Source of the DNA: Enterococcus faecium
Lineage (GTDB): Bacteria; Bacillota; Bacilli; Lactobacillales; Enterococcaceae
Assembly: GCF_029023785.1 (NCBI RefSeq)
Contig: NZ_CP118955.1
Span: 62,001-126,000, forward strand
Direction: 5' to 3'
DNA: 64,000 nt
Position 1 is the first letter of the stretch. Every line of letters begins with the position of its first letter. The notes under the pieces are model-generated. The model did not search any database. It saw only the letters and a program-made list of their open reading frames with translations, and had not been told where the DNA came from. A program made the position numbers and the translations under genes. Below are positions 18,799 through 52,215 of this stretch, piece after piece.

Positions 18799-19236
18799 GA
18801 GGTTATGATAGAAGTGGTCAGCTTCAAGAAATAAGAAGGAATTTACGAAAATTACTTCTCAAAATTTTGCAAAATTTCGGCTTATTTTCGAAGGAGCTAC
18901 TTCTGGAACACCGTGAATCAGAGGTTGTGAAAAAGCTGTCCTGCATCAAGTAATAAGAACAGCCAAACAAAAATAGCTTCTCATATTTTTCGTTTGGCTG
19001 GGCTTATTGCCGCAGATGCAAGCTTTTGAACACCGTTTAAGGAAGAGGTCGTGAAATCAGCGTTTTGACCTGAGTATTAGAGAAACAAACGGGAAAATAG
19101 CTCCTCATATTTTGCCGTTTGTTGAGCTAATACCGAAGGTCAGCTGATTGAACACCGTTTAAGAAAGAGGTCGTGAGCCTGTCATTTAACTCTGAGTCAC
19201 AAAGAGCAATTTCAAAAAACAGCTTCTCATCTTTGA
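18799..19236 (+). repeat. Tandem hairpin-repeat array A (3 full units and a truncated fourth)
   Basis: Units begin with a conserved GAGGTYRTGA at 18799, 18921, 19045 and 19167 (about 122-124 nt each). The fourth breaks off near 19236. Linkers such as GAACACCGTTTAAG are conserved. Between them each unit folds into one long imperfect hairpin with conserved loop CTTCTCA. Arms differ but stay complementary: unit 2 has CAGCCAAAC/GTTTGGCTG, unit 3 has AACAAACGG/CCGTTTGTT. The array starts directly after the truA stop. Confidence 0.85.
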
Positions 19237-19389
19237 TGAATATCGCGACTTGTGAACGAAGCATGGATAAGTGAACCTTCTTTTTTCCATGCTACTTTTT
19301 TTGTAACCAAAAAACGATGGAACGTTGTTTTGATTGCCCTTAATGAGGACAGTCGGAACAGGTTTGTCATTATTATATTTAAATGGCAC
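19186..19389 (-). other. Unrecognised short ORF reading inward from a transposon end
   Basis: It has 67 codons, starting inside the transposon-end copy at 19365-19453 and reading away from its tip, with Lys/Arg-rich sequence (GYKKSSMEKRRFTYP). The last part overlaps the truncated repeat unit. Its position fits the first gene of a transposon that has been cut off, but no family was recognised and coding is doubtful. Confidence 0.25.
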
Positions 19390-19453
19390 AAATTTTTCTA
19401 ATTATTTGTCATTTAGCGCTGAAAATTTTTGCTATTTATCTAAAAAAGTGATA
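19365..19453 (-). mobile_element. Orphan transposon end, 89 nt, tip at 19453
   Basis: The reverse complement of this segment matches 21366-21454 over 89 nt with only four differences. The tip reads TATCAC here against TGTCAC in the other copy. The tip faces right, so the element interior was to the left and is now lost or replaced by repeat array A. Confidence 0.8.
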
Positions 19454-19462
19454 ACTACTTAA

Positions 19463-19726
19463 GATGAAGCAGAATATTTACGCCATACGGCATACAACCG
19501 CGAAGAATATAAAAAAAAGAAAACGATTGAACGCGTTTTTGCAGTCGCAAAGGAAAAGCATGGAATGCGCTACATCAAGTATCGAGACTTGGAAAACAAT
19601 CAGGTGTATACGCTGATTGTTTTTGCTGCAATGAATCTGAAAAAGTTGTCCACTTGGCAGTTGGAACATATGTCTTCATATCTTTTATTATACAAAAATA
19701 GCAAAAGCACCAGTCTACACTCTTAG
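19463..19726 (+). pseudogene. IS1182-type transposase, C-terminal fragment
   Basis: An open frame of about 87 codons reads EAEYLRHTAYNREEYKKKKT, IERVFAVAKEKHGMRYIKYR, then VYTLIVFAAMNLKKLSTWQL, ending in TAG at 19724-19726. The pattern ERVFA.AKEKHGMRY..YR...NLKKL is the C-terminus of DDE transposases of the IS1182 group. The N-terminal catalytic part is missing and the fragment starts 10 nt after a transposon tip, so it is a decayed remnant. Confidence 0.8.
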
Positions 19727-19760
19727 TAAAGAGGAAACTGATCCTTTTGTCTACATTCTT

Positions 19761-19791
19761 AAAGTACTTAAACTAAGTACTTTATTTTACT
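19761..19791 (+). terminator. Possible weak terminator after the transposase fragment
   Basis: AAAGTACTT at 19761-19769 pairs perfectly with AAGTACTTT at 19775-19783, followed by ATTTTACT. The T-tract is interrupted, so this is tentative. Confidence 0.4.
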
Positions 19792-19844
19792 CTTTAGGAT
19801 TGATACAGTAGCATCTATCCCTTTATTAATAATCTTTTATTTTT

Positions 19845-20621
19845 TTAAATAAAGATGTTGTCTCCATCTTCAGGCACTAAAACTTTTTCGGAAATTCCTT
19901 TTTCTTTATTGAAAGACTTTAATTCTTCTCTTGACAGTCCCCAATGGTTTACAGCTTCCATATGAACGGCAATAATTGTGGAATCTGGTATTGCTTTATG
20001 CAATTCATATAAATCGTCTTTCCCCATAATAAGAGATTCTCCAACTAAAAAATGATTATCTCCAGCATTTGCTACTATGATTTCTGGCTTATACTGATCA
20101 ATAGTTTGTTTAACAGCTTCATACCAAACTGTATCTCCTGTAAAGTATAGTGTCTTCTCAGTCGAATGTTTGAAAACAATACCGCAAACATTACCTACAT
20201 AATTCAAGATTTCTCCTCTGCCATGTTTGCCTTTTGTTTTAACCAATTGTATAGATTCAAAAACTGTGTCTTCTCGTAGTACCTCCACATTTTTAAAACC
20301 ATATAGTCGAATTTCATTCGCATCATTTTCATCTTGCACAAATAATTTTATTTCTTTAGGTAGGACCTCTTTCGCTATATCGTCCCAATGATCTAGATGT
20401 AAATGTGTTACAATAACAGCATCAATACCGTTGATAATATCTTCGACTGGCATTGGCAAATCAACTAGAGGATTCATTTGATCTTTTCTTGGTGATGGAA
20501 AAGGACCTTTCGAAATAAATGGTGGAAGTGTTCCTTTTTCCGCTAACATTGGATCAATTAAAAATTTTTTACCTCCATAGTCTAAGATAGCTGTTGCATT
20601 ACGAATGTGATGTATATTCAT
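19845..20621 (-). CDS. Metallo-beta-lactamase-fold hydrolase
   Basis: It encodes 258 aa with the metal-binding motif THLHLDHWDD near residues 92-101, a further histidine region around IAVHMEAVNH, and FTGDTVW. This is the layout of UlaG-like cytoplasmic MBL hydrolases. There is no signal peptide, so it is not a secreted beta-lactamase. The substrate cannot be told. GGAG lies about 9 nt upstream of the ATG. It is divergent from an Lrp-type regulator that probably controls it. It lies outside the transposon ends on both sides. Confidence 0.85.
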   Translation of the reverse strand: MNIHHIRNATAILDYGGKKFLIDPMLAEKGTLPPFISKGPFPSPRKDQMNPLVDLPMPVEDIINGIDAVIVTHLHLDHWDDIAKEVLPKEIKLFVQDENDANEIRLYGFKNVEVLREDTVFESIQLVKTKGKHGRGEILNYVGNVCGIVFKHSTEKTLYFTGDTVWYEAVKQTIDQYKPEIIVANAGDNHFLVGESLIMGKDDLYELHKAIPDSTIIAVHMEAVNHWGLSREELKSFNKEKGISEKVLVPEDGDNIFI

Positions 20622-20743
20622 AAACGTTGTCTCCTTTTTGTTGATATGAAATATTTTTAGTATAATTCAATTCCATACAATAAATAAACCGAACAAAAAA
20701 AGTCTTTTACTATTTTTACTTAATTTATGAAAGGTTGTTTACC

Positions 20744-21151
20744 ATGTTAGACCAAACAGATATAAATATCATTGAGGAACTATCAAAAAATAGTCGAATC
20801 ACAATGAAAGAACTTGGAGAAAAAGTACATTTGACTGGACCCGCTGTCTCGGCGAGAGTGACAAAACTAGAGGAAAGTGGAGTTATTGAAAATTATACAG
20901 TAAAATTAAATATGGAAAAGCTAGGGTTTTCGATTCACGCTTTTTTAATTATAATTACGCAAAATTTAAATCATAAACCCTATTTATCATTTATTAAAAA
21001 TCATGAAAAATTCTTGATTAGAAATTATAAGATTAGTGGAGGGGGCTGTTATCTTTTGGAATGTAGATTTACTTCAAAAAAATCAATGAACAGCTTTTTG
21101 GAACAGCTTAATGAATATGCGAATTATAAATTATCTATTGTTATAGATTAA
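20744..21151 (+). CDS. Lrp/AsnC-family transcriptional regulator
   Basis: It encodes 135 aa, MLDQTDINIIEELSKNSRIT onward. The N-terminal winged helix-turn-helix (residues about 4-50) includes MKELGEKVHLTGPAVSARVT. The C-terminal ligand-binding RAM-like domain has CYLLECRFTSKKSMNSFLEQ. It is divergent from the MBL hydrolase with 122 nt between them, a typical regulator-target pair. ATG at 20744 is preferred over TTG at 20735, which is closer to AAAGG. Confidence 0.88.
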   Translation: MLDQTDINIIEELSKNSRITMKELGEKVHLTGPAVSARVTKLEESGVIENYTVKLNMEKLGFSIHAFLIIITQNLNHKPYLSFIKNHEKFLIRNYKISGGGCYLLECRFTSKKSMNSFLEQLNEYANYKLSIVID

Positions 21152-21264
21152 TAATAAAACTAGCAGATGGTAAAAATACTAATATGCGAGACACACATTC
21201 AACCATAACTATATAACTTATCAATTTATATAACTTATCAATTTAAAACTAAACTGATGGAAAC

Positions 21265-21308
21265 AAGTAAGGCAAAAACATTTATATTTTGCCCTACTTA
21301 TTTTTTTA
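21265..21308 (+). terminator. Terminator after the Lrp-type regulator
   Basis: AAGTAAGGCAAAA at 21265-21277 pairs with TTTTGCCCTACTT at 21287-21299 (one mismatch), followed by ATTTTTTTAA. Confidence 0.8.
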
Positions 21309-21365
21309 ATTAAATTCATTGATGATTCATATTTAGAAAATTCTATGAAGGCCAAATGAGTATCC

Positions 21366-21454
21366 TGTCACTTTTTTAGATAAATAGCAAAAATTTTCAG
21401 CGTTAAATGACAAATAATTAGAAATATTTGTGCCATTTAAATATAAAAATGACA
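21366..21454 (+). mobile_element. Transposon left end, 89 nt
   Basis: It begins TGTCACTTTTTTAG at 21366. The first 47 nt run from TGTCAC to AAATGACA and match the 47-nt right end at 23183-23229 read on the other strand. A second block ending AATGACA follows. Such multi-block ends are typical binding sites for DDE transposases that work with an AAA ATPase. Confidence 0.75.
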
Positions 21455-21475
21455 TCCAAGTATATCATGAACGCA

Positions 21476-21508
21476 CAAAAAGTCCAACAGGGTATACCCT
21501 GTTGGACT
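21476..21508 (-). terminator. Terminator for the secreted-protein operon (reverse strand)
   Basis: A perfect 28-nt palindrome covers 21481-21508: AGTCCAACAGGGTA and its exact complement. On the reverse strand it is followed by TTTTTGTGC. It lies 42 nt past the stop of the ArsD-like gene. Confidence 0.85.
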
Positions 21509-21549
21509 AAATAAATGTCAAATTCCGTTCTCAACTGTGCATATTCATT

Positions 21550-21888
21550 CTATGTCCCATTTACCCCATTATCCTCCTGAATACTCATTCCAATGTTAGT
21601 TAATTTTTCTAATTCTTCTACGCTTAGATAAGCGCCATATTTTACAATTTCCTCATCAATGACAATAATCGGTAAACTTTTCAAATCTTTTGTCTGCAAC
21701 AAGTTAAGAATTTTAGGGTTGCTAATAAAAGGCAAGATAGAGTCACTTAAAAAATATAAATTTGTTTCTATCTGTTTATTCTTAATCCGATTATAAAACT
21801 CTTTTAGCATCGTATCCTCATGTAATGATTGAAAAACGAAGAGTCCTTCATCATCACTTCTATTTAAGACATAGTAAGAAATTATCAT
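21550..21888 (-). CDS. Small ArsD-like (thioredoxin-fold) protein without cysteines
   Basis: It encodes 112 aa, MIISYYVLNRSDDEGLFVFQ onward. The C-terminal half, with NPKILNLLQ and LPIIVIDEEIVKYGAYLSVE, resembles the ArsD pattern LPxxxVDGEVVKxGxYPxxEE. There is no cysteine, so it cannot bind arsenite like ArsD or act as a redox thioredoxin. The ATG at 21888 overlaps the stop of the secreted-protein gene by 4 nt (ATGA), so translation is coupled. An accessory or self-protection role for the secreted partner is inference. Confidence 0.65.
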   Translation of the reverse strand: MIISYYVLNRSDDEGLFVFQSLHEDTMLKEFYNRIKNKQIETNLYFLSDSILPFISNPKILNLLQTKDLKSLPIIVIDEEIVKYGAYLSVEELEKLTNIGMSIQEDNGVNGT

Positions 21889-22424
21889 TTTCCTATTGTC
21901 AATCCTCCCGCAGTGCAAGAGACTGACCCTACACCAAATGTATTATAAACTTGCATAGCTAATTTTACACTGTAATATTGTCTTTTCCAAGTAAATGTAA
22001 AATACATTCCTCCACCATAACCATAAGAATTAGCTAGATTTACTGTTTGAGTATATGATTTTGCACTACCTAAACTCAAGCGTGTAGAAATACGATACAT
22101 CGCCGAATTGGGACTTGTTATAATATATTCTGTCCGCCCCTGCGTATTAGTAATTTTTTTAGTAGATGCGGTTAACCGCAATACATTTGCAGAAAAACGT
22201 GTTTTCGGATCTTGAGGCTCTATCTTTTGAGTGTAAAAAGTATCTTTATCACTAAATCCTTTGGATTTGAAGTAACTTTGTTCTTCTGGTGTTAATTGAC
22301 TAAAAGTTTTTGCCATTTCACTTGTTTGTTCAACCATCGTGCTAGCTTTAACTATATTTCCAGAAGTCCCAATACCAATAAAACCAAATAACAGAATAAA
22401 AAGTGCGCTAAATAATTTTTTCAT
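21885..22424 (-). CDS. Secreted protein of unknown function in a transposon
   Basis: It encodes 179 aa, MKKLFSALFILLFGFIGIGT onward: a classic signal peptide with likely cleavage near KAS (residues 26-28), then LTPEEQSYFKSKGFSDKDTF. The C-terminal half is rich in Tyr, Ser and Gly (NSYGYGGGMYFTFTWKRQYY) and has one cysteine near the end. No family was recognised. Size, secretion and coupled partner allow a bacteriocin-type or surface role but do not show it. ATG at 22424 is used because AGGAAG lies 8 nt upstream; GTG at 22433 overlaps that site. A cre-like site lies upstream. Confidence 0.75.
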   Translation of the reverse strand: MKKLFSALFILLFGFIGIGTSGNIVKASTMVEQTSEMAKTFSQLTPEEQSYFKSKGFSDKDTFYTQKIEPQDPKTRFSANVLRLTASTKKITNTQGRTEYIITSPNSAMYRISTRLSLGSAKSYTQTVNLANSYGYGGGMYFTFTWKRQYYSVKLAMQVYNTFGVGSVSCTAGGLTIGK

Positions 22425-22455
22425 AGTAATCACTTCCTAATTCATTAAATTTTGA

Positions 22456-22483
22456 GGAAAACGCTTTCTCAATCTCGATTATA
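22456..22483 (-). promoter_or_regulatory. -10 box and cre-like CcpA site before the secreted-protein gene
   Basis: On the reverse strand TATAAT is at 22483-22478. AGAAAGCGTTTTCC at 22469-22456 follows, matching 12 of 14 bases of the CcpA operator form TGAAAGCGTTTTCA. The -35 region is weak. A cre just downstream of the start would repress when preferred sugars are present. Confidence 0.6.
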
Positions 22484-22535
22484 CATCTCCTTTTAAAAAT
22501 GTACACCGTTATTTTTTGAATATTCAGACTTTTTC

Positions 22536-23156
22536 TTGTTCTTGATAAATGCAACAGATGAAATATTAAGTGTAAATAAAGTTTTTTATACTGTACCAGC
22601 TGAAAAGATGTCTCGTGTCAGTTCGGATATTAACACAATAACTAGTAGAATAGGTCTGACTAAAGCAATGCATATGGTACTAAAATACAATCAAGAAGAT
22701 CCTCCTGTGCCTAAAACCTATGAAGCAATTGACTTAATTATTGTCGATGAAATTGATCGTTTAAAGCTTCAGCATTTAGAACAGCTAAGAGATATTTACG
22801 ATAGAAATGATCTGGCAATGGTTCTTATCGGTATGCCTGGTATTGAAAAAAGATTGTCTCGTTATCCGCAGCTTTACTCTCGCATAGGATTTGCACATGA
22901 ATTTGATAACCTTAGTAAGGACGAAACACATCATATTTTGGAATACAAATGGGCAGATTTAGGAATTGATATCAAGCTAGAAGATTTTTCTGATTATGAG
23001 GCTATCACAACTATCATTAAGATCACAAAAGGAAATTTTAGGCTTATTCATCGTTTATTTGCGCAGATTGATCGGATTTTAAGAATCAATCAAATGGATA
23101 AGATCACTGTAGAAGTTGTCGAAGCAGCAAGAGATAGTTTAGTCATAGGTATATAA
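22536..23156 (+). pseudogene. Transposition ATPase (TniB/TnsC-like AAA), 5'-truncated
   Basis: About 206 residues with Walker B LIIVDEIDRL near residue 70, sensor-like VLIGMPGIEKRLSRYPQLYS, and a C-terminal helical part. The Walker A P-loop that should precede KVFYTVPAEKMSRVSS is missing, and the only available start is a TTG without ribosome binding site. ATPases of this kind help a DDE transposase choose targets. The gene ends 26 nt before the right transposon end, as expected for the last gene of such an element. Confidence 0.7.
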
Positions 23157-23183
23157 AAAACCACCAAAAATCAGGTGGTTTTT
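23155..23183. terminator. Bidirectional terminator
   Basis: AAAAAACCACC at 23155-23165 pairs with GGTGGTTTTT at 23174-23183 around loop AAAAATCA. The flanking A and T runs let it work for the ATPase gene from the left and for yfhO from the right. Confidence 0.8.
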
Positions 23184-23229
23184 GTCATTTAAAGATTGAA
23201 ATTTTTGCCATTTAAATAGAAGAGTGACA
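23183..23229 (-). mobile_element. Transposon right end, 47 nt
   Basis: Read on the reverse strand it starts TGTCACTCTTCTATTTAAAT and ends AAATGACA after 47 nt, aligning with the first 47 nt of the left end at 21366. The bracketed element is therefore 21366-23229 (1.86 kb), much shorter than an intact element of this type. Flanking 5-mers (TATCC and CAGAT) do not match, so no target duplication is visible. Confidence 0.75.
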
Positions 23230-23246
23230 CAGATTCCATCGTTTCT

Positions 23247-25916
23247 TTATTTTCTTCGTCTTCTTCTGTGTGTATTTCGCGGTTTTTCTTCTATTGCTGG
23301 ATCAATCGTGCCATAAAAGGGGCGATTGCGGTCAAGGTACCAGACATAAAGAATAAACAATGCAATACATAGGACAAAAAGGATTGCACCTATCGTAAAT
23401 CCTTCAGGCAAGTAACTGAAAGTGACAGTATGTTTACCTGCTGGAACTTTTATCATCAAGAATGCGTCTTTGAAATTGCTGACCTTGACTGGTTTCCCAT
23501 CAATTTTAGCTTTCCATCCTTTGTCATAAGGAATAGTTGTCACCAACATGGAATCTTCAGCGGTATTTACAGTCCCAGAAGCTTTTCTGCCAGTGGCTTC
23601 CATTTCGACACCTTTTTCTTTGATCTGATTCATTGCGGCTTGATAGGCTACAACATCTAGACCAACGACTTTAGGCTCCATGAAACTTACTTCTTTCGTT
23701 CCATAAAAACTTGCAGTAAATGTCACTGTTGTCTCTTGAGGATAATAGCCAAGATCATAGTATTGACCAGAAATGTTGATTTGCGTTTTTCGCGATGTAC
23801 CATTGACAGTGATCGTCGCACTAGAACTTTCTAATTGTGCAAAATTGGTTGGGAACAAACTTAAGTAAGCTTGTGTATTTGCAGGCACATGGACTTCCCA
23901 AGTGAGCTCTTTTGGCTGGTTATCTGCTGTTTCTGAGTAAGTGACGCCAGTCGTTGTCTTTGTGATCGTCGTATTCAACTGATTCTTCAAAGTAGGTGTA
24001 TAGAATGTAAAATACTGTTCATTTAAACCAGACAATGTATTGATCAAGTTTGTCTGACTGGTCAAATTATCTGTCACTGGCTGCTCAACATCATTAACGG
24101 ACAACGGTGCAGTAAATGCTAGTGGCAATGCATTGACATTCTGATACAGTGTATAGTCGCCGCTTTGACCAGCTTGGCGGAAGCCATATTTACTGAACGT
24201 GCTTTCGTTTTTAGAAATGTTATATTTGATTCCTGTAAACCCATCCATCAGCAAAGTATTATTGTTATAACGGATATTCAAATTTGTCCCTCTTGAACGG
24301 AAACCTAATTTATCCAGGTAAGAGGAAGAATTACGATTTCTTATAGAAGAAAACAAACTGATACCACTGTAACCGTAGTTGATCGAATCGTTTGCAGATA
24401 CTGGATCCAGATTTTCCAAGCGGTAAAACGAGTCGGAATCTTTTTTTGTTTCATTTACAAGAGCTTTCAAGTCAGGATAAGGATCAGTATATAAACTGCG
24501 GGAAGCATAATTCCAATCATCAAGAATGCCATGGATCATACTGTTTGTATTGACCAGTGCTTCAGCAGACATGATCAATAATAACAATATACTCAGATGA
24601 TTGAATGAAAGTTTTTTATGCTGATAAAATCCCACAGCAAAAGCATAAATCCCTAAGAAAACCACTGTCAATACAAAGGAAGTCATCGTCACATAGGTGT
24701 AGCTTCCTTCAGGTTTGATGCCCCATGCCACCGCAAAGAGAGCAGCTACGACCAAAATGATTCCTAACAACAGCCCACGATCGTCTTGTTCTATCTTTTC
24801 CCATCCTTTTCCTGCAAGCAGGAGCACTAAGAAAGAGAACAGATAGGCATAACGGAATAAAAACATATTCGGTGCATGCATACCATGCCAGAACAAATTC
24901 AATGGAACAAGATAAAAACTTGCGATAAGTATGGCGAAAAGACTGCCGTACAAAAATTTATTTTTCAACGGTACTTTCCGACTGGCAAAATAAAACAGAC
25001 AGAGGACTAACGGGAGCAGACCTGCGTAAACGAACGGAATCGATCCGTATTTTGTCGTGTCATAAACACCAATCATATTTTTCATGATTAGATCCAGATA
25101 AGAAGTCGCTTCTGTTTTCAACGTAGTGATCTGACTCAGTGCCTCGCCATTTGACCGAAGATCCAGCACTGCTGGCAATACAATGATCATTGAAGCGCCG
25201 CCTGCCAGTAAAGAAGTGATACCATAAGGAACAATCGTTTTTTTATATTCTGACCAGTTTGTCAATAGACGGGCGATAAAATATAAGAAAGAAAAGACGC
25301 CAATCATAAAACCCATATAAAAACTGGATAAAAACAAGAGTAAATAACTGATAAATAAAAGTTTCGGCCGTTTAAGATCCATAACACGATGAATCCCCAA
25401 AATCACTAATGGAAGATAAACAAATGCATCCAGCCACATGATGATCTCCGAATGTGCAGTGATAAATGAGATCAATGCGTAACTGACGCTAAGTGCAACA
25501 TGCCCCCAGCGAGGAATCTTGAACGTACGTGCAAGAAACCAAAAAGCCAATCCGGCACAGCCGACCTTAAGCAAAGTCAGAACGTACAGTGCATCTGGCA
25601 TCATCTGGTTTGGAAAAAAGAACACCAGTGGCGTGAAGATCCCGCCTAGATAGTAAGAAATTAAAGATAAATAATTCAATCCTAGAGAAGCATTCCATGT
25701 ATAAAAAATACTTTGCTTTCCAAGAAGAACATTTCGGAAGCTGGCATGAAAATTAGAAAACTGTGAAAAGGCATCACTTGCCAAAATACTTCTGCTGCTT
25801 CCAGGATAGATTCCGATACTTAGATAAACAAGTGCTAAAATCAAAAACGGAATCAGGAAACTAGCTGCTGCGTAGCGTCCGTTTTCTCTAAAGAATGACT
25901 TTAAATTTTTTTTCAT
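23247..25916 (-). CDS. yfhO: YfhO-family membrane protein (lipoteichoic acid glycosylation type)
   Basis: It encodes 889 aa with about 12 or more membrane helices in residues 15-460, a large extracytoplasmic domain at about 470-835, one last helix (FTIGAILFVLCIALFILYVW) and a basic C-terminus RNTHRRRRRK. YfhO/GtcA-type glycosyl transferases move sugars from a lipid carrier to wall polymers outside the cell; in Bacillus YfhO decorates lipoteichoic acid. LPEGFTIG before the last helix is typical. Normal length for the family. It is transcribed alone, leftward. Confidence 0.88.
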   Translation of the reverse strand: MKKNLKSFFRENGRYAAASFLIPFLILALVYLSIGIYPGSSRSILASDAFSQFSNFHASFRNVLLGKQSIFYTWNASLGLNYLSLISYYLGGIFTPLVFFFPNQMMPDALYVLTLLKVGCAGLAFWFLARTFKIPRWGHVALSVSYALISFITAHSEIIMWLDAFVYLPLVILGIHRVMDLKRPKLLFISYLLLFLSSFYMGFMIGVFSFLYFIARLLTNWSEYKKTIVPYGITSLLAGGASMIIVLPAVLDLRSNGEALSQITTLKTEATSYLDLIMKNMIGVYDTTKYGSIPFVYAGLLPLVLCLFYFASRKVPLKNKFLYGSLFAILIASFYLVPLNLFWHGMHAPNMFLFRYAYLFSFLVLLLAGKGWEKIEQDDRGLLLGIILVVAALFAVAWGIKPEGSYTYVTMTSFVLTVVFLGIYAFAVGFYQHKKLSFNHLSILLLLIMSAEALVNTNSMIHGILDDWNYASRSLYTDPYPDLKALVNETKKDSDSFYRLENLDPVSANDSINYGYSGISLFSSIRNRNSSSYLDKLGFRSRGTNLNIRYNNNTLLMDGFTGIKYNISKNESTFSKYGFRQAGQSGDYTLYQNVNALPLAFTAPLSVNDVEQPVTDNLTSQTNLINTLSGLNEQYFTFYTPTLKNQLNTTITKTTTGVTYSETADNQPKELTWEVHVPANTQAYLSLFPTNFAQLESSSATITVNGTSRKTQINISGQYYDLGYYPQETTVTFTASFYGTKEVSFMEPKVVGLDVVAYQAAMNQIKEKGVEMEATGRKASGTVNTAEDSMLVTTIPYDKGWKAKIDGKPVKVSNFKDAFLMIKVPAGKHTVTFSYLPEGFTIGAILFVLCIALFILYVWYLDRNRPFYGTIDPAIEEKPRNTHRRRRRK

Positions 25917-26062
25917 ATTTATTTTCCACCAAATTTCTATGAAGTTGTATTCAGTTTATCATATCCTTGTTTTTCTCTGCTTAAAAAGAGTCTAGTTTTC
26001 ACAAAAAAATAAAATTTAGAATAAATAACTTCATAATTTGTTCGTATAACAAAAATAAACGC

Positions 26063-26095
26063 AAAAAAAGGGTAGGAATCAAAAGTCCCACCCTT
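26063..26095 (-). terminator. Terminator, reverse strand, downstream of rpmB
   Basis: AAGGGTAGGA at 26068-26077 pairs with TCCCACCCTT at 26086-26095 (one mismatch). On the reverse strand a run of seven U follows. It is the second of two tandem terminators for rpmB. Confidence 0.75.
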
Positions 26096-26111
26096 AAAAA
26101 TTTTTATTAAA

Positions 26112-26138
26112 TAAAAAACCGTTCACTATCTGAACGGT
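26112..26138 (-). terminator. Terminator directly after rpmB, reverse strand
   Basis: ACCGTTCA at 26118-26125 pairs with TGAACGGT at 26131-26138. On the reverse strand TTTTTT follows directly. It lies 16 nt past the rpmB stop. Confidence 0.85.
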
Positions 26139-26153
26139 CCAAGTATCATTCAA

Positions 26154-26342
26154 TTAAACGCGTTCAACTTTTCCTGATTTCAAAGCACGAGTTGACACCC
26201 AAACTTTTTTAGGTTTTCCGTCGACCATAACGCGAACTTTTTGTAAGTTAGGTTTAACAGTACGTTTTGTTGAGTTCATAGCGTGTGAACGGTTGTTTCC
26301 ACTTTTTGTCTTGCGACCTGTAAAGTAACAAACTTTTGCCAT
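26154..26342 (-). CDS. rpmB: Ribosomal protein L28
   Basis: It encodes 62 aa, [20 protein letters not shown] onward, ending [15 protein letters not shown]. This is the zinc-free form of L28 since only one cysteine remains. ATG at 26342 has GGAGG upstream; a longer frame from 26375 adds residues not in L28. It is divergent from the asp23-family gene, an arrangement shared with Bacillus (rpmB-yloU). Confidence 0.96.
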
Positions 26343-38202: not shown

Positions 38203-38214
38203 TCACTAAAAATG

Positions 38215-38250
38215 ACCGAAAAAGGGCGATGTCCTTTTTCGGTTTTTTAA
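38215..38250 (+). terminator. Terminator of the opp operon
   Basis: ACCGAAAAAGG at 38215-38225 pairs perfectly with CCTTTTTCGGT at 38233-38243, followed by TTTTT. Confidence 0.93.
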
Positions 38251-38253
38251 TAT

Positions 38254-38430
38254 TTTTCTGTTTATTTCTCTAATATTCAGGTCAAGGCGCTGTTTCCATG
38301 ACTTTTCCAATAAACGGTGTACAAAGTCCAGTTTCTCGGTATTAAGTCAAATTTATGCAAAAATATGGAAAGCCATTTTCACAAAATTTTTTCTTCATAC
38401 TCGAAACTAAACGAATTTTTCACAACTTTT
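38254..38430 (-). repeat. Degenerate hairpin-repeat locus B
   Basis: Read on the reverse strand, 38430-38311 is a worn unit of the family: GTTGTGAAAAA start, core AAAATGGCTTTCCATATTTT (17 of 20 matching), ACACCGTTTA linker. 38310-38254 matches the first half of unit 3 of array A: on + it reads TCTCTAATATTCAGGTCAAG here, against TCTCTAATACTCAGGTCAAA in the complement of unit 3. It lies between the opp terminator and the rnc promoter. No gene was found in 38251-38480. Confidence 0.7.
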
Positions 38431-42837: not shown

Positions 42838-42845
42838 GAACGAAA

Positions 42846-47119: not shown

Positions 47120-47121
47120 AA

Positions 47122-47177
47122 GAAAAAGCTTTTGACAGATTGTCCTATTTGATGTCAATCTGATCAAAAGCTTTTTT
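47122..47177. terminator. Bidirectional terminator between gshF and yueI
   Basis: GAAAAAGCTTTTGA at 47122-47135 pairs with TCAAAAGCTTTTTT at 47164-47177. CAGATTG/CAATCTG extends the stem inward. A and T runs at both ends serve gshF from the left and yueI from the right. Confidence 0.9.
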
Positions 47178-47206
47178 GCATGTAAAAATTTATGTGTTTT
47201 TTCGTT

Positions 47207-47659
47207 TTAAAATAAACGATCCCAGAAGCTTTTTTTCTTTTTTGGTTTTTCTTTTTCAACTGGCGAAGAGTTTTCTTCTGGGTATTTTTTTTCGATATCA
47301 ATCACAGGTTCATTTACTGCTTCTTTTGCTGTTAAGAGCAATCCGAATTCCTCAGGATTTGCAGTGACGTAATCGTTGACTACAGTAAATCGGCTATTGT
47401 TTTTCGTTGCTAGCTGGATATATTGGTTTTGGACAGAAAGGGGTAGAGCCCCATTCAAGAGTATGGAAGCATCTGGATGTTTTTTGAGTTCTTTTAAAAA
47501 GTTTTCTTTGTTTTTTGGTTGGATCATTTCAGCAACAGTCATACTAAGATAGCAGCGTTCCCTGAATGTCCCTAAATATTTATGCTGTTCTTCAGGGTTC
47601 ACTAAAGGTGTACCATAAAGTCCCTTATCCAAATGGCTTTTTACATCATCTTGTGCCAT
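47207..47659 (-). CDS. yueI: YueI-family protein
   Basis: It encodes 150 aa, MAQDDVKSHLDKGLYGTPLV onward, including RTFRER-like GTFRERCYLSMTVAEM. This DUF1694 family is known from Bacillus YueI; its role is unknown. The C-terminus is Lys-rich (EKPKKKKSFWDRLF). ATG at 47659 has AAGGAGGG upstream; the frame is open 44 codons further but lies in the promoter region. Confidence 0.88.
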   Translation of the reverse strand: MAQDDVKSHLDKGLYGTPLVNPEEQHKYLGTFRERCYLSMTVAEMIQPKNKENFLKELKKHPDASILLNGALPLSVQNQYIQLATKNNSRFTVVNDYVTANPEEFGLLLTAKEAVNEPVIDIEKKYPEENSSPVEKEKPKKKKSFWDRLF

Positions 47660-47696
47660 AAAAAATACCCTCCTTCTTCTCTTTGTCTTTCTTACG

Positions 47697-47725
47697 ATTA
47701 TAGCATATTCCCAATAATACCTAAA
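47697..47725 (-). promoter_or_regulatory. Promoter of yueI
   Basis: On the reverse strand an extended -10, TGCTATAAT, has TATAAT at 47702-47697 and a weak TTTAGG -35 17 bases upstream (47725-47720). Confidence 0.65.
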
Positions 47726-47741
47726 ACATATGAAAAAGCGG

Positions 47742-47770
47742 TTGCTTTTGTTCAACGATTCACTTAAAAT
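47742..47770 (+). promoter_or_regulatory. Promoter of the ferric-siderophore transport operon
   Basis: TTGCTT at 47742-47747 and TAAAAT at 47765-47770 are 17 bases apart. The Fur-type operator starts right at the -10 end. Confidence 0.75.
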
Positions 47771-47790
47771 AAGAATGAAAATCATTCTCA
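47770..47790. promoter_or_regulatory. Fur-box operator
   Basis: The reverse complement of 47776-47790 is TGAGAATGATTTTCA, 13 of 15 matches to the 7-1-7 Fur box TGATAATNATTATCA. GAATGA/TCATTC at 47773-47787 is the inner inverted repeat. Position over the transcription start implies iron-dependent repression of the downstream operon. Confidence 0.82.
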
Positions 47791-47809
47791 ATTAGAAAAG
47801 GTGGATTGG

Positions 47810-48760
47810 ATGCGCTACGGACGACTAGTAGCATTATTAGTTATTTTAAGTAGTATTTCATTGTTCATCGGAGTATCGAATGTACAATTGTCAGAACTGC
47901 TCCAGTTAGATGGGCAAAGCTTACAAATCTTGCTAGTGACTCGTTTGCCACGAACGATTTGTTTGATCCTTGTGGGAGCGACCAGTAGTATTTGTGGGTT
48001 GATCATGCAACATTTGACCCAAAATAAATTTGTTTCACCAACGACTGCGGGCACGATGGATAGTGCGCGTTTAGGTATTTTAGTGGCTATGATTTTCCTA
48101 CCTGGTGCATCCTTGATTGTCCGATCCTTGACAGCATTTTGCTTTGCTTTTGCAGGAACATTGCTTTTTTTATCCCTTACGCGATTGTTCCCCCAGAAAA
48201 ATCAATTGATGCTTCCGTTGATTGGAGTCATGTTAGGGAATATCATTGGTTCAGTTGCTACTTTTTTTGCTTATCAATTCCAGTTGGTACAAAATATGAC
48301 TTCATGGCTTCAAGGGAATTTTGCAACTGTGATACGAGGAAATTATGAGTTATTGTATGCTGTTGTTCCATTGTTGCTCTTGGTTTGGCTATTTGCTTAC
48401 CGATTTACGATCATTGGTCTGGGCGAATCGTTTGCAGTAAATTTGGGAATAGATTACCAGAAGATGCAGTTTTTAGGCATTGGCTTAGTATCATTGGCTA
48501 GTGCAGTCATGTTGATCATGGTAGGAAGCATTCCTTTTATCGGAGTGATCATTCCGAATCTTGTCTCTAGAATATATGGAGATCAAGTGCACAAAACAAT
48601 TGGCGTAACTGCTTTAGCAGGTAGTTTGTTCTTAGTATTTTGCGATCTTGTCGCTCGCGTGTTGATTTTTCCTTATGAAATACCAGTCAGTGTGATCGTT
48701 GGAATCATCGGTGGGGCTATCTTCCTTTATCTTCTGATAAGGGGGCGACGATATGCTTAA
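47810..48760 (+). CDS. Ferric-siderophore ABC transporter permease 1 (FecCD family)
   Basis: It encodes 316 aa with about nine membrane segments and the FecCD blocks LPRTICLILVGATSSICGLI and VGSIPFIGVIIPNLVSRIYG. ATG at 47810 follows AAAAGGTGG; an in-frame GTG at 47801 overlaps that site. Gene order permease-permease-ATPase-binding protein is that of the Bacillus Ycl/Fpb and Campylobacter Ceu catecholate-type importers; specificity here is inferred only from order. Confidence 0.9.
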   Translation: MRYGRLVALLVILSSISLFIGVSNVQLSELLQLDGQSLQILLVTRLPRTICLILVGATSSICGLIMQHLTQNKFVSPTTAGTMDSARLGILVAMIFLPGASLIVRSLTAFCFAFAGTLLFLSLTRLFPQKNQLMLPLIGVMLGNIIGSVATFFAYQFQLVQNMTSWLQGNFATVIRGNYELLYAVVPLLLLVWLFAYRFTIIGLGESFAVNLGIDYQKMQFLGIGLVSLASAVMLIMVGSIPFIGVIIPNLVSRIYGDQVHKTIGVTALAGSLFLVFCDLVARVLIFPYEIPVSVIVGIIGGAIFLYLLIRGRRYA

Positions 48761-49712
48761 AAAAAAGCCATCTATTTTTATTGGTATGCTTGTTCTTGTT
48801 TTATTTGTTACAGGAATGTACTTGACGATCCATACATATGGAAACTGGCATTTTGCATGGGCATTGAGGAGTAAGAAAATTTTTGCATTTATCCTTGTCT
48901 CGCTAGCTGTCAGCAGTGCCACAATCAGCTTTCAGACAATTACGCATAACCAGTTTTTGACTCCTTCAGTATTGGGACTTGAGTCGTTATATGTCCTTGT
49001 CCAAACGGTCCTTTTCTTCTTTATCGGAGGAGTGACGATGCTTCAGCAGACAGGTACAGGTTTTTTCTTATTGAACGTTGGGCTGATGGTCGGGCTGAGT
49101 CTATTGTTATTTTTCTTTCTTTTGAAAAAAATGAGAGCGAATCTTTTTTTATTACTGATGTCAGGGATGATTTTAGGTACGCTTTTTGGTAGTGTCAGTA
49201 CCTTTTTACAAGTCATCATGGATCCGAATGAGTATGATTTGCTTCAAGGCAGATTATTTGCAAGCTTTGGCAATATCCAGAGTCAGTATCTTTTGCCTGC
49301 TTCTTTGATCATTATCGGCTGCTGGTGCCTGTTATTTCGATATCGACATGTGCTAGACGTTTTCCATCTCGGAAATGAACAAGCAGTAAACCTCGGGATA
49401 GACACAGATCGTTTTGAATTTTTGATTTTATGTTGTGTCAGTCTTTTGACAGGGACATCAACGGCTCTTGTGGGTCCAGTTACTTTTTTAGGGTTTATTG
49501 TCGCAAATATCAGTTATCGTGTCTTTTCTACTTATCGTCATGGTCAGCTATTTATCGGAAGCTTTCTGGTAGCTATGCTGTTTCTGACAGGAGGACAGCT
49601 CGCAGTAGAGCAGATTTTCGGCTGGAATACAACAGTGAGTGTCGTCGTTGAATTTGTCGGAGGAATTTATTTTGTCACAAAATTGATTCGCGAAAGGAAG
49701 AGTATCCTATGA
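48753..49712 (+). CDS. Ferric-siderophore ABC transporter permease 2 (FecCD family)
   Basis: It encodes 319 aa with about nine membrane segments; GPVTFLGFIVANISYRVF is the FecCD coupling-loop region, and LGNEQAVNLGIDTDRFEFL precedes it. It forms a heterodimer with permease 1. The start overlaps the previous gene by 8 nt and the end overlaps the ATPase gene by 4 nt (ATGA). Confidence 0.9.
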   Translation: MLKKKPSIFIGMLVLVLFVTGMYLTIHTYGNWHFAWALRSKKIFAFILVSLAVSSATISFQTITHNQFLTPSVLGLESLYVLVQTVLFFFIGGVTMLQQTGTGFFLLNVGLMVGLSLLLFFFLLKKMRANLFLLLMSGMILGTLFGSVSTFLQVIMDPNEYDLLQGRLFASFGNIQSQYLLPASLIIIGCWCLLFRYRHVLDVFHLGNEQAVNLGIDTDRFEFLILCCVSLLTGTSTALVGPVTFLGFIVANISYRVFSTYRHGQLFIGSFLVAMLFLTGGQLAVEQIFGWNTTVSVVVEFVGGIYFVTKLIRERKSIL

Positions 49713-50464
49713 TTGATTTACAAAAGGTCAATAAACTGTACCATGGAAAATCAGTGGTTAAAGATGTACAGTTAACGATTCCTGAAAAGAAGTTGACTGC
49801 TTTTATCGGTCCAAATGGTGCTGGAAAGTCAACGGTGTTGTCGATGATCAGTCGTTTGATACCAAAAGATACAGGTGAAATCTATTTAGACCATAACGAA
49901 GTAAAGGCTTGGAAATCCAATGAATTAGCAAAAAAATTATCGATCCTACGACAATCGAATGAAATAAATGTCCAAATTACCGTGAAAGAATTAGTAGAAT
50001 TTGGACGATTTCCTTATACGAAAGGAAAATTGACGACAAAAGACGAGGAAATCGTTCAGGAATCACTGGAACACCTTGGGTTAGAAGAAATAGCGGATCA
50101 ATCGATTGACACCCTTTCAGGCGGTCAACTCCAACGTGCGTATATTGCAATGGTGCTAGCGCAAGACACGGATTATATTTTACTGGATGAACCTTTGAAC
50201 AATCTAGATATGAATTTTGCGGTTCAAATCATGCAGATTTTAAAAAATTTAGTACAAGAAATCGGGAAAACAATTGTTATTGTTCTTCATGATATCAACT
50301 TTGCTGCAAGTTATGCAGACGAAATTGTTGCGATGAAAGATGGACAGTTATTCACGCAAGGAACGACCCAAGAAATGATAAAAAAAGATGTATTGGACGA
50401 ATTGTACGAAATGGACATACGGATTTGTGAGATTGAAGGCCGCAGATTCTGTCTTTATTTCTAA
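49709..50464 (+). CDS. Ferric-siderophore ABC transporter ATPase
   Basis: It encodes 251 aa with Walker A GPNGAGKST near residue 34, signature LSGGQLQRAYIAMVLAQ, and Walker B YILLDEPLNNLDM, the FepC/FhuC-type pattern. It powers the two permeases. GAAAGGAAGAG upstream within the previous gene. Confidence 0.92.
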   Translation: MIDLQKVNKLYHGKSVVKDVQLTIPEKKLTAFIGPNGAGKSTVLSMISRLIPKDTGEIYLDHNEVKAWKSNELAKKLSILRQSNEINVQITVKELVEFGRFPYTKGKLTTKDEEIVQESLEHLGLEEIADQSIDTLSGGQLQRAYIAMVLAQDTDYILLDEPLNNLDMNFAVQIMQILKNLVQEIGKTIVIVLHDINFAASYADEIVAMKDGQLFTQGTTQEMIKKDVLDELYEMDIRICEIEGRRFCLYF

Positions 50465-50486
50465 AACTAACATTAGGAGAGAAGAG

Positions 50487-51440
50487 ATGAAAAAATTAGT
50501 AGTAGGTATCTTGATTCTAGCATCATTTGGTTTAGCAGCATGTGGAAATAGCAACAACACCAGTCAGGCAGATACAAAGAAAAGCAGCACACAAACTGAA
50601 ACTACATTGACGATAACAGATAGTAATGGAGACCAAATCGAGGTGCCAAAGAATCCTGAAAAAGTCGTCGTATTCGACAATGGTTCTTTAGATACGATGG
50701 ATGCTCTTGGTGTTGGAGATAAGGTAGTTGGAGCAGCTACGAGCAGCCTTCCTGAGTATCTTTCCTCCTATAAAAAAGTGGAATCAGCAGGTGGAATAAA
50801 AGAACCAGACTTAGAAAAAATTAATCAGCTTCAGCCAGATCTAATCATCATTTCTGGCCGACAAAGAGATTTTCAAAAAGATCTAAGTCAAATTGCTCCG
50901 ACCATTTTCCTTTCTTTAGATGCGAAAAAGCCATGGGAATCTTTCCAGCAAAATGTCACTGCTTTAGGGGAGATCTTTGGTAAGCAAGAAGAAGCTAAAA
51001 CTCAATTAGAGGAATTATCTAGTGCAATCGATCAGACGAAAAAGAAAGCAGAAGCGTCTGATAAAAAAGCACTAGTCACACTTGTGAATGAAGGGCAATT
51101 GTCAGCCTACGGATCTGGTTCTAGATTCGGTTTCATCCATGATTTATTTGGCTTTGAACAAGCAGATGATCAAATCGAAGCATCCACTCACGGTCAAAGT
51201 GTTTCTTATGAATATGTGCTAGAAAAAAATCCGGATATCTTATTTGTGGTAGACCGAACAAAAGCTATTGGTGGAGACGACAGCAAAGATGATATTTCTG
51301 CCAATGAACTGGTAGCACAAACGAATGCTGGTAAAAACCAGCAGATCATCTCCCTTGAACCAGATGTCTGGTATTTAAGCGGGGGCGGTTTAGAATCAAT
51401 GAAACTGATGATCGAAGATGTGAATCAAGCATTTAAATAG
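50487..51440 (+). CDS. Ferric-siderophore-binding lipoprotein
   Basis: It encodes 317 aa. The lipoprotein signal ends in LAAC with C19, then a Ser/Thr/Asn linker and a FecB-type periplasmic-binding-protein domain (ALGVGDKVVGAATSSLPEYL; INQLQPDLIIISGRQRDF; LEKNPDILFVVDRT). ATG at 50487 has TAGGAGAG upstream; the longer open frame before it overlaps the ATPase gene. It captures the iron complex outside the membrane. Confidence 0.92.
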   Translation: MKKLVVGILILASFGLAACGNSNNTSQADTKKSSTQTETTLTITDSNGDQIEVPKNPEKVVVFDNGSLDTMDALGVGDKVVGAATSSLPEYLSSYKKVESAGGIKEPDLEKINQLQPDLIIISGRQRDFQKDLSQIAPTIFLSLDAKKPWESFQQNVTALGEIFGKQEEAKTQLEELSSAIDQTKKKAEASDKKALVTLVNEGQLSAYGSGSRFGFIHDLFGFEQADDQIEASTHGQSVSYEYVLEKNPDILFVVDRTKAIGGDDSKDDISANELVAQTNAGKNQQIISLEPDVWYLSGGGLESMKLMIEDVNQAFK

Positions 51441-51532
51441 CATAAATAACAGAGGATTAAACTCTCATACTATGTAACAATAATGTTTCTTACATTCTTA
51501 AATAGCAAGAGCCTATCCTCAAAGAAGTTATC

Positions 51533-51578
51533 AAAAACCATCCGTAAAATCGTATTGATGATTTTACGGATGGTTTTT
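51533..51578. terminator. Bidirectional terminator after the iron operon
   Basis: AAAAACCATCCGTAAAATC at 51533-51551 pairs perfectly over 19 bp with GATTTTACGGATGGTTTTT at 51560-51578. It can end the iron operon from the left and the 35-codon ORF from the right; the ORF stop codon lies inside the stem end. Confidence 0.9.
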
Positions 51579-51684
51579 ATTTATTTGGGAAATCTTTTTT
51601 CAACGTGAATTCATTCTCTACATCATACGGGTTGATTCTAGAATGGGGAGTGGCAAAAAATAGTGTGATCCATTTTTTCAGCAT
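51577..51684 (-). CDS. Small ORF, 35 aa, unknown
   Basis: It reads MLKKWITLFFATPHSRINPY then DVENEFTLKKDFPNK. The ribosome binding site AAAGGAGG lies 9 nt before the ATG. It has a basic N-terminus and a short hydrophobic stretch (WITLFFAT) and could be a membrane-associated or exported peptide. The site is embedded in a 20-nt palindrome (51696-51715). No family was recognised; ribosome binding site, start and a terminator directly at its end argue for real expression. Confidence 0.5.
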   Translation of the reverse strand: MLKKWITLFFATPHSRINPYDVENEFTLKKDFPNK

Positions 51685-51695
51685 CAAGATCGCCT

Positions 51696-51715
51696 CCTTT
51701 GATTTGAATCAAAGG
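51696..51715 (-). promoter_or_regulatory. Palindrome that can hide the ribosome binding site of the 35-aa ORF
   Basis: CCTTTGATT and AATCAAAGG form a perfect 9-bp stem around TG. On the reverse strand the 3' arm ...AATCAAAGG continues into AGG, so the Shine-Dalgarno AAAGGAGG lies half in the stem. It could be a translational switch or a protein operator. Confidence 0.5.
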
Positions 51716-51767
51716 TACAAAGCGAAACTTAGATAAAACTTAAATTTAGATATTTTTATTTTGTACC

Positions 51768-52215
51768 GATCTCTTCTTTAAACGATGTTCCATCTGCTGC
51801 TTCTCGGCAATAAGTCCACTAGACATTAGACTAGAAAATATGAGAAGCTATTTTCTGTCCAGCGTTCTTATTACTCAAAGCAAATCGTAGTTGTCACAAT
51901 CTCTTCTAAACGATGTTCCATCTGCTGCTTCTCGGCAATAAGTCCACTAGACTAGAAAATATGAGAAGCTATTTTCTGTCCAGCGTTCTTATTACTCAAA
52001 GCAAATCGCAGTTGTCACAATCTCTTCTAAACGATGTTCCATCTGCTGCTTCTCGGCAATAAGTCCACTAGACATTAGACTAGAAAATATGAGAAGCTAT
52101 TTTCTGTCCAGCGTTCTTATTACTCAAAGCAAATCGCAGTTGTCACAATCTCTTCTAAACAATGTTCAATCAGCTGACCTTCGGTATTAGCTCAAAGCAC
52201 TGATTTCACAACCTC
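51768..52215 (-). repeat. Tandem hairpin-repeat array C (3 near-identical units and a short fourth)
   Basis: Units on + coordinates are 51768-51897, 51898-52017, 52018-52146 and a shortened 52147-52215. The first three are nearly identical; the middle one lacks about 10 nt (ACATTAGACT). The 20-mer AAAATATGAGAAGCTATTTT is the exact complement of the core in array A unit 2 (18970-18989). Read on the reverse strand the array starts 3 nt after the stop of the 98-aa gene. The short unit has lost its middle but matches array A unit 3 at both ends. Confidence 0.85.

Follow-up and report, generated by a model that had tools for sequence, protein, structure and literature searches.

Enterococci harbour palindromic repeats without coding capacity, the EFAR elements, which De Gregorio et al. 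are said to have described in 2009. Their size reportedly varies through the assembly of 16 sequence types; most are said to measure about 170 bp and to form two independent stem-loops, and they reportedly insert at stem-loop targets, of which the stem is partly retained. The BIME/REP elements of enterobacteria are mosaic tandem palindromic arrays with typed linkers that lie outside genes, and BOX and RUP are modular or terminal-repeat, non-autonomous, intergenic sequences, of which RUP has a known IS partner. In integrons, the bulges of attC sites mark the strand that is bound by the recombinase. In excerpts of PMC2267715, Efa-1 of E. faecalis appears as an intergenic element of 163 bp with 65 copies (18 bracketed in the table) that forms an adjacent stem-loop pair. 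BOX and RUP of pneumococcus are listed in excerpts of PMC2267715 and PMC3733652, the latter of which names the EFAR elements Enterococcal MITEs and has De Gregorio et al. 2009 (FEMS Microbiol Lett 292:7-12, pmid 19222577) in its reference list.

Here, we analyzed a 64,000-nt stretch of enterococcal DNA (the window), in which a first-pass annotation had noticed hairpin repeats at three loci. All three arrays were found at these positions in a sequence read-out, and a calibrated covariance model, for which 36 units of the genome (G000) were used, five of them from the window, gave nine unit matches there at E <= 5e-8. Array 1, on the forward strand, begins at the stop codon of truA with a type A unit that forms a full hairpin (18798..18917; 104.2 bits). 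This is followed by a type B unit (18920..19039; 122.7 bits) and a type C unit (19044..19161; 112.4 bits), for both of which the fold was computed, and by a half unit of type D lacking the right arm (19166..19284; 61.2 bits; typed D/-). A terminator-like hairpin on the same strand, GCATGGA...TCCATGC with a T run, was recognized by eye 3' of the array (19260..19302). Array 2, on the reverse strand, is flanked by an SBP_bac_5 gene and the RNase III gene (rnc) and is antisense to both. It comprises a type E unit (38311..38430; 103.7 bits) and, by eye, the left half of a type C unit ending at the apical loop (about 38251..38306); its 3' end adjoins the hairpin terminator of the SBP_bac_5 gene (38213..38248, no strand assigned, by eye). 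Array 3, also on the reverse strand, begins a few nucleotides past a stop codon with a type C remnant whose hairpin middle is absent (52156..52216; 43.6 bits) and continues with three type F units (52028..52153, 98.5 bits; 51907..52025, 116.7 bits; 51779..51904, 93.9 bits), the first and third of which carry a 7-nt insertion.

The arm sequences and complements quoted in the first-pass annotation are present in the sequence. The conserved linker that it described holds as a pattern, which with up to three mismatches (GAACACCGTTTAAGNAAGAGGTYRTGA, derived from the window itself) occurs twice in the window compared to 0.00 times in 100 shuffles, but not as a uniform sequence, array 3 reading GAACATYGTTTA-GA-AGAGATTGTGA. 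Likewise, a loop is kept at the position of the proposed constant CTTCTCA, whereas its sequence is mostly GYTYYYCA. The suggested Rfam search revealed no matching repeat family above the curated gathering threshold: the sole match in the window above threshold was L17DE at 15145-15218, and the array 1 stretch gave two matches named after microRNA families, both far under threshold.

The family is far larger than the three loci. Units of about 120 nt gave at least 150 covariance-model matches in this genome, and a single-unit blastn query gave 75 matches, partial and opposite-strand matches counted. The genus-wide search proposed in the annotation detected the family in 15 of 15 genomes of the genus, the source genome included, and among Enterococcaceae 37 of 58 genomes contain it at the search threshold. 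Each cassette consists of a bulged hairpin flanked by AGAGGTTGTGA and GAACACCGTTTA, and one to seven such units, belonging to six arm types and their hybrids, follow each other in an array. The repeats are palindromic, lie outside genes and have no coding capacity, traits observed here that agree with those reported for EFAR in Enterococci. As in EFAR, size varies through the mixing of types, six here versus the 16 reported. The EFAR form of about 170 bp, reportedly the commonest one in E. faecalis, has a counterpart in the E. faecalis record NZ_CP143580.1, where a 120-nt unit (L272:20006-20125) is followed by a terminal hairpin of about 50 nt, with similarity over 20001-20182; this form was seen in two places. 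Kinship with the E. faecalis repeats, which the annotation could only raise, is thus supported by covariance-model matches in that record. In contrast to EFAR, likened here by its reported description, the arrays reach seven units and use other arm types. The likeness to Efa-1, an element defined in E. faecalis, is by description. BIME/REP arrays are mosaic and tandem as well and may work alike without the present repeats being members, which are about three times longer and have conserved bulges. The likeness to RUP is also by description, and no IS partner was found here among the IS256-type transposases checked. EFAR-type repeats already have a published structural description, and the repeats analyzed here fit that reported family. 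We consider it likely (probability about 0.72) that the units are EFAR-type modular mobile palindromic repeats of Enterococci that lodge at transcription terminators, and we place most confidence in the EFAR-type identity and the single-strand fold.

The arrays are mostly found at gene ends. In G000, 57 of 71 arrays are in sense to the preceding gene, at a median of 11 nt past its stop codon, and 44 of these 57 begin within 40 nt of it; at codirectional gene pairs of G000 and G009 taken together, 18 of 60 arrays are antisense. Among the 59 of 71 arrays with uncut first and last units, 46 are followed on their 3' side by a strong hairpin (<= -14 kcal/mol), compared to 14/59 and 7/59 at control positions +400 nt and -700 nt, respectively; the median over the terminal hairpins is -20.8 kcal/mol. 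The other 13 array ends have no hairpin of -14 or better, and T-rich sequence where the hairpin ends was seen in only 27 of 59. In the E. faecalis record, unit and hairpin together span the whole gap between two convergent CDS. Arrays that split the stem of a terminator should have complementary flanks. Cases at 628.9 kb and 698 kb had suggested such complementarity as a general property, which failed the shuffle test in G000 (950 of 2000 shuffles as low; 53 of 71 arrays, those with intact end units) and was marginal in G009 (35 of 2000; 30 of 39 arrays, selected alike), and we therefore do not claim it. The idea that TGTGACA hairpins occur mostly independently of arrays was also rejected, 21 of 24 listed positions in G000 lying within 152 nt of an array in stretches that had been chosen for arrays.

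The sense orientation near stop codons is also compatible with a 3'-UTR RNA module that serves the host, in which recognition of the hairpins by a nuclease or another protein of the host (RNase III, KhpB or other) would either protect transcripts or yield small RNAs, the copies being kept for this function. The preserved bulge and loop, the single-strand wobble signature (both described below) and the presence of the family in every genome of the genus searched point in the same direction. To our knowledge, no protein partner of the repeat hairpins has been described. According to excerpts of PMC3733652, bacterial MITEs are generally transcribed, and their folds stabilize or destabilize mRNA, a general effect that would suit such a module. 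On the other side, the main text of an enterococcal RNA map (PMC7724050) contains the words "repeat" and "EFAR" 0 times, and a Grad-seq paper (PMC10117718) contains "palindromic" 0 times and "repeat" in one method line only.

Comparison with a sister genome speaks further against host function, since unit content at fixed genomic sites changes rapidly. Among 33 sites located in both genomes, at most three keep their unit content: at 2491 kb the unit list is the same, at 132 kb one arm label differs, and at 791 kb a decayed unit is common to both. The remaining 38 of 71 arrays had no located ortholog in the sister-genome stretches compared. Because the sister genome is a draft of about 70 contigs, some absent units could reflect assembly collapse. 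Single units were gained or lost at 599.9, 641, 851.9 and 2391 kb and 3' of truA, and at 641 kb the linker moves together with its unit. After truA, inspection by eye showed an array in 2 of 16 genomes, plus one decayed copy, which also counts against such a module. We consider host service as the main cause possible, but doubtful. In place of the G000 arrays at 2455.8, 858.8 and 2404 kb, the sister genome contains no unit but an unrelated hairpin; at the first two of these sites, both genomes share the flanking A-tract and T-tract. If the arrays are the younger state at these sites, the hairpins could be stem-loop targets of the kind reported for EFAR; the flank complementarity of G000 arrays was not significant. 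Two partial units at 2459 kb that occur in G000 alone are flanked by two copies of TATATCAGAGGTTGT, of which the second is the left arm of the terminator. Contigs labelled "Listeria phage LM 4-11-1/4-14-1" were considered as strain variants, and those that match share 99-100% identity with long parts of the window. Since these contigs look like short-read assemblies, the array 3 differences in H121 and H128 could stem from assembly collapse and were excluded from the analysis.

While unit content changes, the fold with its bulges and loop is conserved across divergent arm sequences. One representative of each of the six arm types adopted the same fold (z -5.4 to -7.0). Covariation exceeded that obtained with shuffled columns, with slid partners and under a tree-based null, for which 4 of 74 alignment rows (A2) were left out, and thus lies above phylogenetic expectation. 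The conserved unpaired parts are a GYYY bulge, a GA/CGA inner loop and a GYUYYYCA apical loop. In an alignment fitted to the covariance model (A3; n = 142 units, 8 of 150 rows with fewer than 112 letters left out), the one-sided 4-nt bulge is kept in 141 units, the 8-nt apical loop in 140, and an inner loop unable to close by two facing pairs in 138.

The first-pass annotation had concluded from compensatory change that the fold is selected. Selection on the fold is upheld by these comparisons, but compensatory change alone would not have sufficed, as in a quasi-palindrome either arm can be rewritten from the other. The units might accordingly be unselected DNA palindromes in which template switching or gene conversion copies one arm from the other. 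Two neighboring units at about 1.2127 Mb of G000:C1 (L003) with near-perfect arms, where most others keep the inner loop, fit this process, as do hybrids of two types, which make up 16 of 243 units and of which at least two, as judged by eye, have their junction at the loop. However, rewriting would erase mismatches, yet bulge, apical loop and unclosable inner loop are all kept, which disfavors it as the sole cause of covariation. Moreover, under rewriting G-U should not exceed A-C on one strand in particular, and such an asymmetry was seen. Taken as the whole explanation, arm rewriting is therefore very improbable.

This asymmetry is evident from transitions within types. At paired sites, G-U was found 209 times versus 82 for A-C, compared to 156 versus 234 for the same classes at unpaired sites; counted as unique events, the numbers are 97/57 and 46/60, respectively (Fisher p 0.0023). 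Of the two forms that the annotation had offered, RNA or cruciform, the tolerance of G-U over A-C on one strand favors a folded single strand, most likely RNA, as the constrained form. A folded single DNA strand would likewise tolerate G-T over A-C. Single-stranded DNA recombination sites similar to attC, in which one-sided bulges mark the recombinase-bound strand and the units are exchanged cassettes, would explain the one-sided bulge, the one-strand wobble tolerance and the cassette-style gain, loss and reordering, including the linker that travels with its unit at 641 kb. The resemblance to integron attC sites is one of logic only: the units carry no genes, and recombination between common linkers accounts for the shuffling as well. 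We regard such sites as unlikely.

With EFAR-type mobile repeats as the preferred reading, the arrays would be present in transcripts as the 3' ends of mRNAs, and the units would be non-autonomous elements that spread by lodging at terminator hairpins, an arriving array replacing or preceding the terminator stem. Units may then be gained, lost and exchanged via common linkers. The main reason for the retention of the fold would be that copies which fold incorrectly are not propagated, effects on host mRNA stability being secondary; we give roughly even odds that copying of correctly folding units underlies the fold constraint. No transposase or other mobilizer was recognized in a check of IS256-type transposases, the only insertion sequence class considered, in four genomes. 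Three of these gave seven matches, and at the five loci examined no AGAGGTTGTGACA-like ends were found near the transposase gene; one AGAGGTTGTGACA-like motif with three mismatches lies 1.4 kb from the IS256-type gene at L279. At these loci, an origin of the units as MITEs of an IS256-type transposon through shared ends received no support. More speculatively, the family might represent an Enterococcaceae-wide structured RNA without an Rfam entry that spreads as swappable 3'-UTR cassettes, the folded sense transcript being the substrate of a putative unit-copying protein, so that the RNA fold would be the replicating part of the mobile element; we rate this version as rather unlikely.

In the open-licence papers searched, outside which the defining EFAR paper lies, neither a specific function nor an RNA model of EFAR-type repeats was found. 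The present analysis adds a calibrated model, the sense strand and a conserved recognition surface composed of bulge, inner loop and apical loop, as well as a species pair that differs in nearly all of the arrays compared. Two questions thereby become testable, namely which factor recognizes the folded unit and whether the arrays influence the 3' ends of mRNAs or are simply carried along by terminators. As many 3' ends would bear one to seven such structures, the hairpins would have to be annotated in enterococcal transcript maps and small-RNA catalogues. Overall, the evidence for a single-strand fold provides a route to the function of these repeats.

With a covariance model built from 36 units of the Enterococcus genome that carries the window (G000; 2.67 Mb, two contigs; the window is 62001-126000 of contig C1), five of them from the window itself, we found nine unit matches at three loci of the window (E ≤ 5e-8), which bears out the hairpin repeats that the first-pass annotation had described there. 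By ribosomal protein L17 alone, the closest named relative among the loci listed is Enterococcus ratti (98%), in a comparison that may lack records of G000 itself or its immediate kin. Array 1 lies on the plus strand, starts at the truA stop codon and contains units of arm types A, B and C followed by half a D unit. Array 2 (38251-38430, minus strand; E and half C) is located between a gene for an SBP_bac_5 solute-binding protein and the RNase III gene rnc, is antisense to both and lies directly upstream of rnc; neighbouring genes were assigned with Pfam. RNase III is also an obvious candidate for cutting such long hairpins. Array 3, on the minus strand a few nucleotides past the stop codon of a 98-aa ORF, comprises the remnant of a C unit followed by three F units that are almost identical. 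Weak further matches were found at window positions 8600 (31 bits), 32278 (21 bits) and 47123 (16 bits). The first (8600-8719) sits in a ribosomal-protein gene cluster and could be either a degenerate copy or an intergenic hairpin unrelated to the family. The window also holds an L17 downstream element (Rfam RF01708; 15145-15218), 3' of rplQ.

Units measure about 118-126 nt, span AGAGGTTGTGA to GAACACCGTTTA and are separated from each other, where readable, by linkers of 0-7 nt; comparison of the site at 641 kb between G000 and its sister genome G009 showed that the linker travels with the unit 3' of it. The six arm types share a general fold (z -5.4 to -7.0; one representative each, 200 shuffles each), from which type A departs most. 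Its outer part consists of a GGU.GU/ACACC stem, a stem of ~7 bp, a one-sided 4-nt bulge and a stem of ~6 bp, followed inwards by a small inner loop and a 7-9-bp stem; above a second inner loop, the long upper stem ends in an apical loop of 8 nt. In full-length units aligned to the model, a fit that biases bulge and loop sizes towards it, the bulge was unopposed in 141 of 142 and the apical loop had 8 nt in 140 of 142, the first inner loop set GA against CGA in 81 of 139, and the second could be closed by two facing pairs in only 4 of 142. At L003:1390-1630 (G000 contig C1, ~1212632-1212872), directly 3' of an apparent tRNA gene, two adjacent units have nearly perfect arms, as if in both one arm had been copied from its partner; elsewhere most units keep an open inner loop. 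Among the G000 and G009 arrays that have at least two units, type A, counting partial copies, stood first in 16 of 21 cases, last in 5 of 21 and never internally.

The fold is supported by covariation. Among 149 distinct G000 units, taken from the best 150 of the 158 matches that the examined stretches gave, 91.6% of pair cells held standard pairs, compared to 39-45% once the partners were shifted by 1-3 columns, and two-sided changes occurred in 35 of 39 pairs; none of 500 shuffles reached these values. For 74 matches that come from further genomes of the genus, the values were 93.1% versus 42-50%, with two-sided changes in 36 of 39 pairs. Both alignments were fitted to the model; in the unfitted first MAFFT alignment of 36 units, 30 of 39 pairs changed on both sides. 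We additionally applied our own R-scape-like test (70 of 74 rows; APC-corrected G statistic; 60 null alignments with substitutions redistributed on a FastTree tree). Eleven pairs reached E ≤ 0.05, all within the structure and none outside, and of the 40 pairs that covaried most strongly, 29 belonged to the structure. Covariation thus exceeds phylogenetic expectation under a tree-based null.

Were constraint to act on the duplex or on both strands alike, G-U and A-C would be expected at equal frequencies. We counted 326 G-U to 88 A-C and 193 to 35 in the two alignments, compared to 584 to 378 and 313 to 184 in their shuffled columns. Within types, single transitions at paired sites of G000 and G009 units made G-U 209 times (C>T 119/2531, A>G 90/4425) and A-C 82 times (G>A 59/2470, T>C 23/4374); the corresponding counts at unpaired sites were 156 and 234. 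When each combination of type, column and change was counted once, the figures were 97/57 versus 46/60 (Fisher p 0.0023, a guide value because copies share ancestry). The first-pass annotation had proposed a fold selected as RNA or as a cruciform: selection on the fold is supported, and the choice between the two forms leans to one strand, the sense strand of the units. Folded RNA is the natural reading of the constrained form, and a folded single strand of DNA may be another.

The proposed search across Enterococcus genomes gave model matches in all 15 genomes of the genus examined, G000 included, at 15 to at least 150 per genome. A blastn search with unit C matched 11 of the 14 other genomes and, outside the genus, one further genome in the family (E 1.3e-5) and one in the order (E 9.1e-4). 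A family survey with stricter filters and at most 62 matches scored per genome recovered the repeat at E ≤ 1e-8 in 37 of 58 genomes, G000 included, and 13 of 17 genera. In E. faecalis NZ_CP143580.1, two stretches (40 and 50 kb) contained one unit each, one of which fills, with its 3' hairpin, the gap between two convergent CDS. The outer stem there is GGTCGGGA...TTCTCGCC, and TGTCCCACGCTC occurs in the terminal hairpin; the G000 counterparts are mostly GGTTGTGA...ACACC and TGTCACA. Units are also present in plasmid records of Klebsiella pneumoniae (CP069367-CP069369), Pseudomonas aeruginosa (NZ_CP151545.1) and Escherichia coli (OL539428.1), a sign that the sequence there may be mixed, cloned or mislabelled. 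Records filed as 'Listeria phage LM 4-11-1' and 'LM 4-14-1' (OR846xxx-OR849xxx) and as 'Enterococcus phage Efs 1-1-1' (OR846588, OR846589, UNVERIFIED_ORG; ~78-80% match to the window) hold Enterococcus-like chromosomal DNA, and 13 and 15 phage-filed records match two 24-kb stretches of the window at ≥99%.

The position of arrays was surveyed in 575,605 bases of G000 and 398,810 of G009, mostly picked for containing arrays. A profile search found 71 arrays with 165 units in G000 and 39 arrays with 78 units in G009; the covariance model gave 158 and 74 units, respectively, above its threshold. With genes called as plain ORFs of at least 80 aa, the gene 5' of the array was on the same strand for 57 of 71 G000 arrays (median 11 nt past the stop codon; 44 of 57 within 40 nt), and the other 14 lay 30-193 nt 3' of an opposite-strand gene. 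The G009 arrays were divided into 30 same-strand, 8 opposite-strand and one that lacked a gene, at a median distance of 8 nt. Orientation is informative for arrays that lie between codirectional genes, and these were sense to antisense 29 to 11 in G000 and 13 to 7 in G009. The best hairpin within 80 nt 3' of the last unit had a median of -20.8 kcal/mol and reached -14 kcal/mol or lower in 46 of 59 arrays; the control positions at +400 and -700 nt did so in 14 and 7 of 59, respectively. A stretch rich in T ended the hairpin in 27 of 59 (controls 11 and 9), so that many array ends are not clear intrinsic terminators. The fold may have a general role at mRNA 3' ends, whichever gene carries the array.

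G000 has 75 TGTGACA-N2-14-TGTCACA hairpins, G009 has 68 and G013 has 36; ten further genomes have 0-11 each (control pattern 0-1 per genome). In the G000 stretches examined, 21 of 24 listed positions were within 152 nt of an array and three were not; there, the hairpin mostly accompanies arrays. A GTGRGACA-class hairpin terminates three G000 arrays of the GGGA kind and is also found at two ordinary GTGA arrays, 641053 in G000, which faces GGGA array 641357 across the hairpin, and 74689 of C9 in G009. On these small numbers, the start of a unit tends to agree with its terminal hairpin.

Matching G009 sites were located for 33 of the 71 G000 arrays through flanks of 86-100% identity. The unit list was identical at one site (F A, 2491 kb); one arm label differed at 132 kb (B A), and at 791 kb, where no G009 unit had been listed, reading revealed the same decayed unit in both. 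Other sites differed (G000/G009) by gain or loss (B C E / B E; C B / C D B; E C D / E C; E C D / E D), order (D B C / C D B), replacement of a whole unit at equal length (767 kb, B / C) or an arm hybrid (2383 kb, B E / B/E); since G009 is a draft of ~70 contigs, assembly collapse could mimic loss, not reordering or replacement. Eight sites listed without a G009 unit, 791 kb among them, were read individually. At 858.8, 2455.8 and 2404 kb, G009 has an unrelated hairpin instead of a unit, with A-rich and T-rich flanking tracts common to both genomes at the first two. At 2459 kb, G009 has only a remnant and the terminator, while G000 alone has two partial units flanked by two copies of TATATCAGAGGTTGT, the second being the left arm of the terminator hairpin; unit start and terminator arm thus read alike. 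G009 has half a C unit at 114 kb (the array 3 site), a partial model match at 641.4 kb (L193:17215-17280) and one C unit at 1914 kb. Downstream of truA, G009 has B, C and half D, compared to A, B, C and half D in G000; by eye, the other 14 genomes showed no array within 700 nt there but frequently a short hairpin, and G005 has a decayed unit that resembles type A. A fold kept for a host function at particular genes predicts conservation at those genes, which we rarely saw.

EFAR elements are reportedly 42-650 bp long and built of 16 sequence types, and are said by De Gregorio et al. to be mostly of 170 bp with two stem-loops and to insert at stem-loop targets. A passage of PMC3733652 counts 'EFAR elements in Enterococci' among bacterial MITEs, citing De Gregorio et al., and an excerpt of PMC2267715 gives Efa-1 of E. 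faecalis as 163 bp, 65 copies and two adjacent stem-loops. The present units are consistent with both descriptions, which places the window arrays with a repeat kind already described. The main text of an RNA map (PMC7724050) mentions neither 'repeat' nor 'EFAR', and a Grad-seq study (PMC10117718) has no mention of 'palindromic' and one of 'repeat', in its methods. In the literature searched, the EFAR-defining paper not included, we found no earlier description of the single-strand signature, of the conserved bulges, of the range across the family or of the near-total turnover between sister genomes. The strong constraint on the fold, together with the weak constraint on its sites, would be explained most easily by a fold that serves to spread the units.
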